DNA of 64,000 bases from Belliella buryatensis. Lineage in GTDB: Bacteria > Bacteroidota > Bacteroidia > Cytophagales > Cyclobacteriaceae. The DNA lies in NCBI RefSeq assembly GCF_900188245.1, contig NZ_FZOK01000005.1:124001-188000 (forward strand), written 5' to 3'. The position numbers were made by a program, and so were the translations under genes. Numbering within the stretch: the stretch's first letter is position 1; the number at the start of each line of letters is the position of its first letter. The notes under the pieces were generated by a model. That model was not told the DNA's origin. It worked only from the letters and a program-made list of their open reading frames with translations, and did no database searches. Below, piece by piece: positions 41,157-56,621 of the stretch.

Positions 41157-41209
41157 GATTAGGGTATTGGTTGAGACCTGCCAGGTCTAATCCCCTGATT
41201 AGGGTATTG
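41157..41209 (+). repeat. two direct GATTAGGGTATTG copies flanking a short palindrome
   Basis: GATTAGGGTATTG occurs at 41157-41169 and again at 41197-41209. Between them is the perfect palindrome AGACCTG-C-CAGGTCT (41174-41188). Another palindrome, CCCGGGTATCGGG, lies just upstream near 41146. The second box copy ends 55 bp before the cytochrome gene ATG. Confidence 0.75.
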
Positions 41210-42953: not shown

Positions 42954-43454
42954 ATGCTAATATTCTTTTTGATAGTGCCGCTTCTACTTCCTGCACAGTC
43001 TATAAAACCTACAAACCCTATTCAATTTAAAATCAAAAATGCAGGCATAATCGTGGATGGAACGATCTCAGATTGGGAAGTAATGGTTGATTTTGATCCA
43101 AAGAAATTAGCTCAATCGAGCATTCGGGGAAAAGCGAATCCTGAGAGTATCCAAACCGGAATCAAGTTAAGGGACAAGCACCTACATGGACGAGAGTATT
43201 TTCATATCCAAAAATTTCCTTTCATTAGCTTAGAATCAAAGTCTTTACGATCAAATGGGAAGAATGCTTTTATTGGGATTTTTGAGTTGCAGATCCGGGA
43301 TGTGAAAAGGGAAATTGAGATCCCTTTTACCCTAACCCAAACGGGAAAGCAACAGAAGTTTAAAGGTGAGTTCACAATTGATCGCTTGGATTATGGTTTA
43401 GGGGAAAAGAGTTTGGTGCTTTCGGATGAAGTGAAGGTGGTGATTGAGTTTTAG
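42954..43454 (+). CDS. YceI-like exported protein
   Basis: The 166-residue protein has a signal peptide (MLIFFLIVPLLLPAQ) and a lipocalin-like core resembling YceI: VKRE at the polyisoprenoid-pocket strand, DKHLHGREYF (family DxHLx-x-x-x-FF), and a repeated-strand end (IDRLDYGLGEKSLVLSDEVKVVIEF). YceI proteins bind isoprenoids or lipids in the periplasm. I start it at 42954, because the open frame back to 42819 runs through the eroded repeat element. Its location 138 bp after the cytochrome gene suggests cotranscription, and YceI proteins often accompany cytochromes. Confidence 0.8.
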   Translation: MLIFFLIVPLLLPAQSIKPTNPIQFKIKNAGIIVDGTISDWEVMVDFDPKKLAQSSIRGKANPESIQTGIKLRDKHLHGREYFHIQKFPFISLESKSLRSNGKNAFIGIFELQIRDVKREIEIPFTLTQTGKQQKFKGEFTIDRLDYGLGEKSLVLSDEVKVVIEF

Positions 43455-43462
43455 GTTTTGGT

Positions 43463-43587
43463 TTCACGCGGCGAGCGCAACGGTTTTAACGCAACGGCCG
43501 CAACGGGAGAAACGCAAAGGTCGCCACGGTAAGGAACTCTATATTACGTCGCGCTCGTGGCGTTCATCGTTGCGCACGTTGCGTGAA
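43463..43587. repeat. hairpin element copy A (TTCACGC...GCGTGAA), left of the GxxExxY gene
   Basis: The 125-bp element starts TTCACGCGGCGAGCGCAACG and ends with the near reverse complement of TTCACGCAACGTGCGCAACG, so the termini form imperfect inverted repeats of about 20 bp. The left half carries repeated (A)CGCAACGG units. It lies between the YceI-like stop and the GxxExxY start. A frame through it (43444-43668) is rejected as a gene. Confidence 0.8.
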
Positions 43588-43664
43588 CTTTTTATTCGAT
43601 TATTTAAACGTTTATCTAAAAGTGAAATCATTGATCTTAGATATTTATTTACTTTTTTTAAAGG

Positions 43665-44042
43665 ATGAATGAAAATGAAATAGCAAAGATAATCCTTGAT
43701 AAGGCTTTTGAAATTCATAGAAACCTGGGACCAGGATTACTAGAGTCTGTTTATGAAAAAGCTTTAGAGTATGAATTGATTCAGGCTGGTGTTTTCGTAG
43801 TATCCCAAGTGCCGGTTCCATTAATTTACAAAGAAATAAAGTTTGAAGCAGGGTTTCGTTTAGATTTGCTGGTAGAAAATAAAGTCATCATAGAAGTCAA
43901 AGCCAATGATGGCTTAGCCCCTGTCCACTTTGCTCAAACTTTGACCTATTTGAAACTTTCAGCTAAGAAGCTGGGATTGCTGTTAAATTTTAATGTAAAA
44001 TACCTGAAAGATGGGATTCATAGAATAGCCAATAACCTTTAG
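43665..44042 (+). CDS. GxxExxY protein, PD-(D/E)XK nuclease-like
   Basis: The 125-residue protein carries the family motif as G24-L-L-E27-S-V-Y30 and a PD-(D/E)XK-type core, Asp67 (FRLDLLVENK) with Glu77-Val-Lys79 (IIEVKA). It also has the conserved QTLTYLKLSAKKLGLLLNFN end. The family function is not established; the fold predicts a nuclease. The gene is bracketed by hairpin element copy A (77 bp upstream) and copy B (53 bp downstream), which also occur elsewhere in the region without the gene. That makes it a candidate partner for repeat mobility or repeat-targeted cleavage. Confidence 0.88.
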   Translation: MNENEIAKIILDKAFEIHRNLGPGLLESVYEKALEYELIQAGVFVVSQVPVPLIYKEIKFEAGFRLDLLVENKVIIEVKANDGLAPVHFAQTLTYLKLSAKKLGLLLNFNVKYLKDGIHRIANNL

Positions 44043-44094
44043 TTTATTGGTTCAATTAAGCCCTGCATTTTATTTTTTTTTAACTGGAAAAGAG

Positions 44095-44194
44095 TTCACA
44101 CGGCGGGCGCCACGGAATTACGCAACGGGCGCAACGAAGTTGAAAATGTGACTCGTTGCGCCCGCCGCATTCATCGTTGCGGTCGCTGCGTGAA
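44095..44194. repeat. hairpin element copy B, right of the GxxExxY gene
   Basis: The 100-bp element starts TTCACACGGCGGGCGCCACG and ends CGTTGCGGTCGCTGCGTGAA. Internally ACGCAACGGGCGCAACGA on the left faces TCGTTGCGCCCGCCGCAT on the right, so most of the element can fold into one long stem. It ends 10 bp before the stop of the truncated antitoxin gene. Confidence 0.8.
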
Positions 44195-44203
44195 ATAATA
44201 TTC

Positions 44204-44446
44204 TCAAGCAGCAGAATCCTCGATTGGAATGATCCTATCCAGTTCATTAACTTTCTGATTTTGTTCTTTTCCAAGATCATATTCATCTTGTAATCCTAAC
44301 CAAAATTTTGGGCTTGTGCCGAAAAATTTACCGAATCGAAGTGTGGTGTCTGCGGTTATTTTTCTATTGCCTTTTATGATTTCAGAAACGCTTGTTTGAG
44401 GAATAAATATTTTCTTAACCAATTTATAGACCGAAATCCCCAAAGA
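44204..44446 (-). pseudogene. HigA-type antitoxin, N-terminally truncated
   Basis: The sequence matches the HigA/VapI addiction-module antitoxin family from LGISVYKLVKKIF through QTSVSEIIKGNRKITADTTLRFGKFFGTSPKFWLGLQ to an intact C-terminus (79 residues from a TTG at 44443). The usual N-terminal segment, about 15-20 residues of the HPGEILxEEFLxP type, is absent. A stop lies four codons upstream of the TTG. No HigB toxin gene is present. The break coincides with the CACATGATTAGGGTATT box at 44449-44465, so this looks like a remnant cut at that box. Confidence 0.7.
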
Positions 44447-50900: not shown

Positions 50901-51025
50901 CACATCATTGGGGTATTGTTAGCTATTGGAATTTCAGGGAAATTTATGGGTGATATTTCACGCGACGATCACGAAGGATATTACGTAACGGGATTTTATT
51001 AAATTCATAGTGTTCGCTGTGTGAA
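50901..51025 (+). repeat. composite repeat C: CACATCATT box plus TTCACGC hairpin element
   Basis: The box CACATCATTGGGGTATTG (50901-50918) is followed by GAATTTCAGGGAAATTTATGGG and then a short hairpin element of 69 bp (50957-51025) running from TTCACGCGACGATCACGAAGG to GTTCGCTGTGTGAA. It is the shortest hairpin copy. It lies between hipA and paralogue 2 of the HExxH proteins. Confidence 0.75.
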
Positions 51026-51096: not shown

Positions 51097-51984
51097 ATGA
51101 AGACGCTTCTTTTCCCCCCCTTTCTGGTATTGATAAGCCTTCAAAGTTTTTCTCAGGATTTTTCCGACCTGAGATATTATGAAGCTGGTAATATCAATCT
51201 CTTCTATTCGCATGAAACAGAAGATAATCCTTTGTTTTTAGGTGTATTGACCAATGATGCAAATAGGTTCTATTCTAAAACTCTGGGAGAAAAGGAGTTG
51301 AAAGTAAATTTGCTTGTCCTAAACAAGGACGATTGGGGGATATATACCAGTAAGCAGTTGATTTATGGAATGCCCCATTGGCGTCGTACAGACAATGCTA
51401 TCATCGTGTCTTCTGATGATAATTTTTTTTGGGCTGCCCATTTGCCAAATCCCAATACGCTACAATCTCCTGACAAGGAGTTATTTGAAGAAACATATGG
51501 AACGGAAAATGGAGGAATGAGTGCCAGGTTTTTTTTCGATCTGGGCACTATCCATGAATTGTTTCATCTATGGCTTTTTAATGGTCAAAGAGAATCGCAG
51601 CGGATATGGCTGGAAGAAATATTTTGTAACCTGGCTGCTTTCGCCTATACACAAACAGAAAGACCCGAGTGGGTAAGTGGGTTAAAAGTATTGGCCGATT
51701 ACCAGGTTGCGAATGATAAAGCTCCCCATCAATATAGGAGTTTGGAGACTTTTGAAGAGAATAGAATGAAAATTGTAATGGAAGCTCCCCAAAATTACGG
51801 TTGGTACCAATTCCGATTCATTCAGGCGGCTAGTCAGCTATATGATGAAGCTGGGGTAGAGGTTATGAAGAAACTTTGGGATTTTCTTGGGGAATACCAA
51901 GAGAAACTGTTTGAAGATGAACTGAAAAATAAACTTACCTCAGAAGTTCATCCCTATTTCAAAGTTTTGATGGAAGAGTGGTGA
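51097..51984 (+). CDS. secreted HExxH protein, putative metallopeptidase (paralogue 2)
   Basis: The 295-residue protein has a signal peptide (PFLVLISLQSFSQ end). HELFH is at 153-157, with Glu174 in WLEEIFCN sixteen residues later, the same spacing as in the paralogue at 44548-45438. Both share LIYGMPHW/F, a DDNFFW/EDNTFW segment, SARFFFDL/SRYFFDL, NYGWYQFRF/NYAWYQYRF and V-H-P-x-F near the C-terminus. Two diverged copies in one region suggest gene duplication followed by separate roles. The substrate is unknown. A box-plus-hairpin element precedes it. Confidence 0.78.
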   Translation: MKTLLFPPFLVLISLQSFSQDFSDLRYYEAGNINLFYSHETEDNPLFLGVLTNDANRFYSKTLGEKELKVNLLVLNKDDWGIYTSKQLIYGMPHWRRTDNAIIVSSDDNFFWAAHLPNPNTLQSPDKELFEETYGTENGGMSARFFFDLGTIHELFHLWLFNGQRESQRIWLEEIFCNLAAFAYTQTERPEWVSGLKVLADYQVANDKAPHQYRSLETFEENRMKIVMEAPQNYGWYQFRFIQAASQLYDEAGVEVMKKLWDFLGEYQEKLFEDELKNKLTSEVHPYFKVLMEEW

Positions 51985-52040: not shown

Positions 52041-52197
52041 CACATCATTAGGGTATTGTAGGCAACTTGAAATTGAGGGAAATTTAGGGGTATGGTTTCA
52101 CGCAACGGACGCAAAGATAAAAACGCAACGGGCGCAACGGGATTGTTTTATAATCGCCGCGTTCTCTGCGCTTTTCTTTGCTCACGCTGTGTGAAAC
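52041..52197 (+). repeat. composite repeat D: CACATCATT box plus TTCACGC hairpin element
   Basis: The box CACATCATTAGGGTATTG (52041-52058) is followed by GAAATTGAGGGAAATTTAGGGG and then the hairpin element bounded by GTTTCAC (52095-52101) and GTGAAAC (52191-52197). The left arm contains CGCAACGGACGCAAAG and CGCAACGGGCGCAACGG; the right arm, read in reverse complement, has GCAAAGAAAAGCGCAGAGAACGCGG. The element ends 16 bp before the deiminase ATG. Confidence 0.82.
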
Positions 52198-56423: not shown

Positions 56424-56621
56424 CACATGATTAGGGTATTGTGGGCGTGATGAATTTCAGGGAAATTTAGGAAAATGGTTTCACGCACACCTTGTCCCGA
56501 GCATCGGGAGAGCGCAACGAAAAAAAGAGAATCTTGTCCTCAAAATTGGGAGAACGCACCTGAATGATATAATTAAATCGTTGAGTCCGTTGCGTTTCCC
56601 TTTGCGCCCGCCGCGTGAAAC
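56424..56621 (+). repeat. composite repeat E: CACATGATT box plus TTCACGC hairpin element with nested palindromes
   Basis: The box CACATGATTAGGGTATTG (56424-56441) is followed by GAATTTCAGGGAAATTTAGG and then the hairpin element from GTTTCAC (56478-56484) to GTGAAAC (56615-56621), 144 bp. Inside are two related units, CTTGTCCCGAGCATCGGGAGAG and CTTGTCCTCAAAATTGGGAGAA, each able to fold. These look like a small palindrome inserted into the element and then duplicated. Confidence 0.8.

Follow-up and report, generated by a model that had tools for sequence, protein, structure and literature searches.

The window analysed here, a stretch of 64,000 nucleotides of Belliella buryatensis, comes from a 3.88 Mb genome (G000) in 52 contigs. 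It carries, at 43665-44042 (+), a gene for a 125-aa protein with a PD-(D/E)XK nuclease fold. In profile searches this protein scored above the curated cut-offs of both PF13366 PDDEXK_3 (E-value 2.6e-38, 137.7 bits, cut-off 35) and TIGR04256 GxxExxY (E-value 2.1e-40, 131.4 bits, cut-off 22) and is thus a member of the GxxExxY family. The gene is bracketed by two hairpin elements, H1 upstream (43463-43587, 125 bp) and H2 downstream (44095-44194, 100 bp), both with TTCAC...GTGAA ends; H1 lies 77 bp before the ATG and H2 52 bp after the stop codon. The preliminary description of this DNA had already reported a GxxExxY nuclease-like gene between two such elements, 77 and 53 bp away, and apart from the second spacing this layout is exactly what we find. 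Both elements fold as hairpins over nearly their whole length, and their arms are built from 7-nt words of the CGCAACG type, the class to which H1 is assigned, paired about 9 nt apart. When folded as single-stranded DNA and compared with 200 dinucleotide shuffles, H2 is better than all of them (z -3.55; 0/200 as good), and H1 (z -1.81) is only moderately better than chance, because 7 of its 200 shuffles fold as well. The hairpin-gene-hairpin unit has a YceI-like gene (PF04264) and a HigA-type gene as neighbours. The latter, a HigA-type antitoxin gene (TIGR02607) at 44204-44443 (-), follows directly after H2, and by eye the stretch beyond H2 differs among relatives.

The window protein looks like an active nuclease of the RecB/Cas4 type, judging by its conserved residues and predicted structure. 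An AlphaFold2 model based on a 122-row alignment has a pLDDT of 95.5. Columns G24, E27, Y30, E77, K79 and N108 are invariant in the family, and D67, H88, Q91 and Y95 are nearly so, with D67, Q91 and Y95 conserved in at least 90% of the sequences. Among them are the predicted active-site residues, those of the motifs known as D-ExK and QxxxY. The PF13366 match, the confident model, invariant E77 and K79 and the conserved D67 place the protein among PD-(D/E)XK enzymes, although the structural matches are weak by E-value: every Foldseek match has an E-value above 0.001. The best of these is SSO0001 (E-value 1.7e-3), which we take to be a Cas4 protein; a tRNA-intron endonuclease ranks second, and LHK and lambda exonucleases are also found. 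A search by sequence among solved structures returned no relative up to an E-value of 1. The likeness to Cas4, RecB and lambda exonuclease thus lies in the predicted fold and in the D-ExK and QxxxY residues. In contrast to those enzymes, the window protein stands alone at 125 aa, has the conserved GxxExxY helix and is associated with repeats.

Hairpins of the same kind also occur in the window without the gene. Two dispersed copies, at 52097-52195 (z -3.12) and 56480-56619 (z -2.63), fold better than their shuffles, whereas a third at 50957-51025 is decayed, with only its ends kept and folding no better than shuffles (z +0.26). Thus, of the gene-less copies previously listed at 50957, 52095 and 56478, the latter two stand as hairpins and the first survives as a remnant. 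The strict double-word pattern CGCRRCGNNCGCRRCG has 12 matches in G000, a modest copy number, five of them inside H1 and H2, and the reversed control pattern has none. A separate motif, CATNATTAGGGTATTGT, is present at window positions 41194, 44451, 48539, 50903, 52043 and 56426; allowing up to three mismatches, it has 9 matches in the window against 0.87 expected. Three of its copies begin 54 bp ahead of the hairpins at 50957, 52097 and 56480.

Is the presence of repeats beside GxxExxY genes general? The preliminary description had proposed comparing the flanks of such genes with those of other genes, and the outcome of this comparison is strongly positive. We fetched 80 relatives solely by protein similarity; according to the record titles, they come from Bacteroidota, Ignavibacteriota and others. 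Of the 72 relatives with full flanks, 44 carry two or more CGC-type words in the 300 bp on each side, but only 3 of 290 control ORFs from those loci do. We also used a test free of any word, in which the left and right 200 bp were compared with each other, in direct and inverted orientation, and against shuffles. By this test, flank repeats exceeded shuffles in 56/75 relatives (75 of the 82 similarity-search genes could be included) versus 26/317 control ORFs (p 3e-31). For further GxxExxY genes, all 64 of which entered the test, the proportion was 44/64 versus the same 26/317 (p 4e-24); these counts include orthologous loci, and 31 of the 64 genes were picked by us from nine related, mostly hairpin-rich genomes. 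Split by origin, the 44 positives comprise 22/29 best matches per other family genome, 19/31 hand-chosen genes and 3 of the 4 GxxExxY genes of G000 itself. YceI-like genes scored 1/18. Y1 transposases, which serve as a positive control because they are known to sit among REPs, scored 17/27 (27 of 30 sampled). Since repeats exceed shuffles without any word being assumed, and controls are low, the association is not a matter of local chance, and we regard it as firm. Left and right flanks often repeat each other directly, the mean flank-versus-flank score being 40.5 for direct and 22.4 for inverted orientation. A strict self-hairpin is present in 32/284 flanks (4 in shuffled ones), and a loose cut-off is passed by 28/289 shuffled flanks too. 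The common feature of the flanks is therefore repeated words more than complete hairpins.

Complementary arms around a small ORF bring to mind an RNA-level role, in which the hairpins would be terminators or processed RNA and the protein would act on the transcript, in the manner of 23S rRNA intervening sequences or tRNA-splicing endonucleases. The second-ranked structural match, one of several tRNA-intron endonucleases obtained, is compatible with this, and so are the similar arms beside four-helix-bundle (TIGR02436) genes, presumably the family of 23S rRNA intervening-sequence proteins, which were positive in 17/28 cases in the word-free test (28 of 30 sampled). However, RNA pairing would favour G.T over A.C mismatches in the arms, and when flanks were compared with their own reverse complements, the two were balanced on the gene strand: 695 G.T and 759 A.C at the loose cut-off (p 0.24), and 76/108, 38/61 and 30/37 at stricter ones. 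Such strand symmetry gives no sign of selection for RNA pairing. Moreover, Rfam had no match within 43400-44300, the one stretch searched, and the top fold matches are mostly DNA nucleases. With neither a wobble excess nor an Rfam match in that stretch, we rejected an RNA function; as an explanation it seems improbable, and the evidence leans toward DNA rather than RNA as the substrate. The accessible part of PMC4990558 describes 23S rRNA intervening sequences as having a small ORF (S23p, TIGR02436) in the loop of complementary arms. The resemblance is in the small ORF between such arms, but GxxExxY is a different protein family, has different words and lies between protein genes, not within 23S rRNA. 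The TIGR02436 loci of relatives (L085-L114) likewise adjoin ordinary protein genes, with arms of other short words. The possibility that four-helix-bundle genes share the GxxExxY word was discarded, as other words were found there, and the open-access literature on these genes gave no match.

The words in the arms fall into six classes: CGCAACG, CGCAAAG, CACAGAK (CACAGAT/G), CACAAAG, ACCATTAAG (ACCATTA/CATTAAG) and CACATAG. Both the classes and the class threshold were set after looking at the flanks; 113/141 loci belong to one class and 28/141 reach no class above the threshold. When mapped onto the protein tree, the word labels of the 113 loci require 10 changes, whereas 300 shuffles required at least 36 (mean 39.9). 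The 39 labelled loci obtained outside the similarity search require 9 changes versus at least 15 in shuffles. With one labelled locus retained per group sharing any neighbour gene (78 of 94 groups, class 'none' dropped), the tree still needs 10 changes, and 500 shuffles at least 24. Counting 'none' as a state raises the number to 27, a figure that stands without a shuffle comparison. A Mantel test of flank 6-mer similarity against protein distance gave r -0.265 beside the gene, with 0/999 permutations as low, and r -0.054 at 600-850 bp from it (91 and 66 of the 94 groups, respectively). Since the distant flanks also gave 0/999, a weak background of relatedness exists. Among the four GxxExxY genes of G000, the window copy alone belongs to the CGCAACG class; one of the other three is CGCAAAG, one CACAAAG, and one reaches no class above the threshold. 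One genome can hold several classes (three in G000, four in G004), so the word goes with the lineage of the protein to a greater degree than with the host. The co-variation of word and protein is firm, like the flank association, and it favours recognition of the word by the protein.

The same words are unevenly distributed among 118 family-level genomes, of which 77 have GxxExxY genes. The strict double word occurs in 32/118 genomes, and low counts can be chance, because the reversed control pattern also matches 18/118, 1 to 3 times each. A GxxExxY gene is present in 29/32 double-word genomes versus 48/86 others (p 0.0004), and in 14/14 genomes with at least five matches versus 63/104 others (p 0.002). 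The dependence is sharper for the ten genomes with a close cognate, defined as a protein with at least 65% identity along almost its full length: each of the ten has at least one double-word match versus 22/108 other genomes (p 7e-7), and 8/10 have at least five versus 6/108 (p 2e-7). These genome counts take in the hairpins beside GxxExxY genes themselves. The six word-rich genomes without an intact close cognate are G041, G052, G055, G063, G070 and G122, the last of which (84% over 50 aa) was kept out of the cognate class. In other words, the earlier expectation that the repeats track the gene is borne out by these associations, but only in part, given those six genomes and the background of the reversed control. 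As for the copies themselves, a 37-nt hairpin core with up to three mismatches was found at 6 places in G060, where a short hairpin subtype of 46 nt recurs nearly unchanged, at 3 in G073, 3 in G042 and 1 in G063, and at none in the six other genomes searched. In 20 chosen stretches of G004 and G060, three of the 21 word clusters fall within an ORF predicted mechanically.

It could be argued that another enzyme, for example a Y1 (RAYT) transposase, moves the hairpins and that the GxxExxY gene is a passenger. Y1 genes are indeed above the cut-off in all seven relatives searched and, as noted, have flanking repeats of their own. G000, however, has a single Y1 match, located elsewhere and below the cut-off. 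Furthermore, the CGCAACG word occurs once in 30 Y1 loci, and only 2/30 reach three copies of any of the six GxxExxY words. A RAYT was rejected as the driver on these grounds, the Y1 genes of G000 and the seven relatives being flanked by other repeats and G000 lacking a Y1 above the cut-off; a passenger role for the GxxExxY gene thus appears highly improbable. The Y1 loci of these eight genomes (L236-L265) have REPtron-like flanking repeats with other words.

Comparison of orthologous sites reveals three allele states, no hairpin, hairpin only and hairpin-gene-hairpin, at two loci. At the YceI locus, 12 genomes were read: six have hairpin-gene-hairpin (G000, G117, G004, G073, G060 and G042), three a single hairpin (G116, G041 and G070) and three no hairpin (G063, G115 and G045). 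A single in-frame TGA is present in the G004 gene, within the part that aligns with the window protein. In G116, the lone hairpin is 0.93 identical to H1 of G004 and continues into what, in G004, is the sequence downstream of H2. In a DNA tree of the locus, in which some forks are weak and G060 sits on a long branch, the hairpin-only G041 and G116 nest among hairpin-gene-hairpin genomes, so that gene loss between two hairpins is the simpler reading. This clearest orderable case thus looks, from the tree, like loss between two hairpins and not insertion. The second locus, read in six genomes, is bounded by a 707-aa oxidoreductase gene upstream and a heparinase-type gene downstream. Here G060 has hairpins on both sides of the gene, G063, whose neighbour is 98% identical, has a hairpin only, and G115, G047, G059 and G044 have none; in Algoriphagus aquaeductus (L012) the place behind the same 707-aa oxidoreductase upstream gene is occupied as well. 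No clean empty site with a target-site duplication was found at the two loci, the hairpin-less alleles being too diverged to show one. Among 12 recovered elements (87-125 nt, TTCAC starts), G000 H2 is most similar to G117 H1 (0.85), which in turn is most similar to G117 H2 (0.88); G000 H1 is 0.74 identical to G004 H1. H1 and H2 types have therefore changed place.

Hairpins also bound genes other than GxxExxY. A gene at 51097-51984 sits between the hairpin copies at 50957 and 52097; it has no Pfam match, and in G004, G073, G060 and G042 the equivalent place has one word cluster and nothing that matches the gene, so these hairpins lie at junctions of gene gain or loss. In G060 (L297, 1452-2073), two complete hairpins some 500 bp apart enclose a 141-aa ORF; this ORF is not GxxExxY and by eye has a signal-peptide-like start.

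These observations bear on what we consider the strongest rival explanation, an inherited unit without recognition, in which recombination-prone repeats accompany the gene, the nuclease serves another purpose (for example cruciform resolution or defence), and the words are alike by descent and local duplication. It would fit the mutual direct repeats of the flanks (40.5 versus 22.4), and the passage from hairpin-gene-hairpin to hairpin is what plain recombination between direct repeats would give. Hairpins bracketing other genes, such as 51097-51984 and the 141-aa ORF of G060, and the six genomes rich in words but lacking an intact close cognate, point the same way. However, at about 40% protein divergence we would expect neutral non-coding flanks to have lost their words, which nevertheless persist across orders. 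The words also differ between paralogues of one genome, and gene-less copies are dispersed in genomes with the cognate gene. Taken together, these points make inheritance alone rather unlikely.

The explanation to which we give a slight preference is that the GxxExxY nuclease recognises the word of its own hairpins and probably drives their copying and exchange. If this is the case, the gene and its hairpins would form one genetic unit, similar to a REPtron but with an unrelated enzyme. A RecB/Cas4-like PD-(D/E)XK protein would read the short word that recurs in its own hairpin arms and would nick or cut the hairpins as folded single-stranded DNA or cruciforms. Repair of such cuts may copy hairpins between sites and keep flanking copies alike, and the gene would persist inside repeats acted on by its protein, the hairpin-gene-hairpin state collapsing to, or arising from, a single hairpin. 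Binding, cleavage, a DNA substrate and the protein as the cause of spread are all putative here. The original suggestion, which made the gene either the partner of the repeats or the source of a protein recognising the hairpin, is thus supported in part. Flank enrichment is strong, and the coupling of word and phylogeny favours recognition; as regards mobilisation by the protein, which is putative, the clearest allele case looks like loss.

How does such a unit compare with known systems? According to the accessible part of PMC6006769, REPtrons consist of a single-gene enzyme flanked by palindromic repeats with gene-less copies dispersed, and the RAYT repeat type is specific to the protein subclass. 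Both properties are found here: the GxxExxY gene is flanked by repeats that occur elsewhere without the gene, and the repeat type co-varies with the protein subclass. However, the enzyme is PD-(D/E)XK and not HUH Y1, and no Y1 is encoded in the unit. The repeats differ as well, being about 46-125 nt long with a TTCAC start and 7-nt words about 9 nt apart, whereas REP/RAYT repeats are palindromes of 20-40 nt with a GTAG/GTGG foot that is missing from the GxxExxY hairpins. Having neither an HUH enzyme nor a GTAG foot, the GxxExxY unit is not a RAYT system by membership. Homing endonuclease genes are likewise single small nuclease genes, and their insertion disrupts their own recognition site in a conserved host sequence. 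The GxxExxY gene resembles them in being a small nuclease gene that stands alone, with empty-like (hairpin) and occupied (hairpin-gene-hairpin) alleles at one site, but differs in that the putative target is retained twice at an occupied site and the clearest polarity is that of loss. MITEs of DDE transposases have terminal inverted repeats and a target-site duplication; in the GxxExxY hairpins inverted ends are present, and the hairpin-less alleles are too diverged for a duplication to show.

Outside the main sample, nine loci were assessed by eye. In Gemmatirosa, one locus (L266) is flanked on both sides by a long hairpin with the word GCAGAGG, and another (L281) has a downstream hairpin. 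Complementary arms are seen in Bacteroides finegoldii (L277) and Bernardetia (L268), and short ones in Treponema (L269); the repeats are mainly direct in Prevotella (L278) and Fusobacteria (L280), only weak words are seen in Persicobacter (L279), and only the left half in Sphingomonas (L267). GxxExxY genes were found in eight plasmid records, the widest query giving 10 places (7 records were retrieved by the window protein and 8 by each of three other queries), and phage records gave no match to the window protein. Cargo of phages or mobile plasmids was rejected as an explanation, there being no phage match and the plasmid records all being typed as non-mobilizable. The accessible parts of the literature naming GxxExxY hold nothing on repeats. 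In the open-access papers searched, we found none on the function of GxxExxY or PF13366 proteins, no match to five arm-word strings, and no printed link between the gene and the hairpins.

A bolder reading, somewhat less likely than not, would make GxxExxY proteins a second class of repeat-propagating enzymes, evolved independently of the RAYTs and spread over several phyla, with each clade having its own word and a readable code leading from protein to word. If true, it would account for a class of hairpin repeats made of short words and would bring an enzyme type other than HUH into the systems that propagate repeats. GxxExxY genes are common in the family (77/118 genomes), and the finding is broader than the single window. 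If the flanking words are the target, every sequenced locus would provide both the enzyme and its substrate, making function directly testable, and the specificities of many uncharacterised nucleases would be on record in the flanking DNA.
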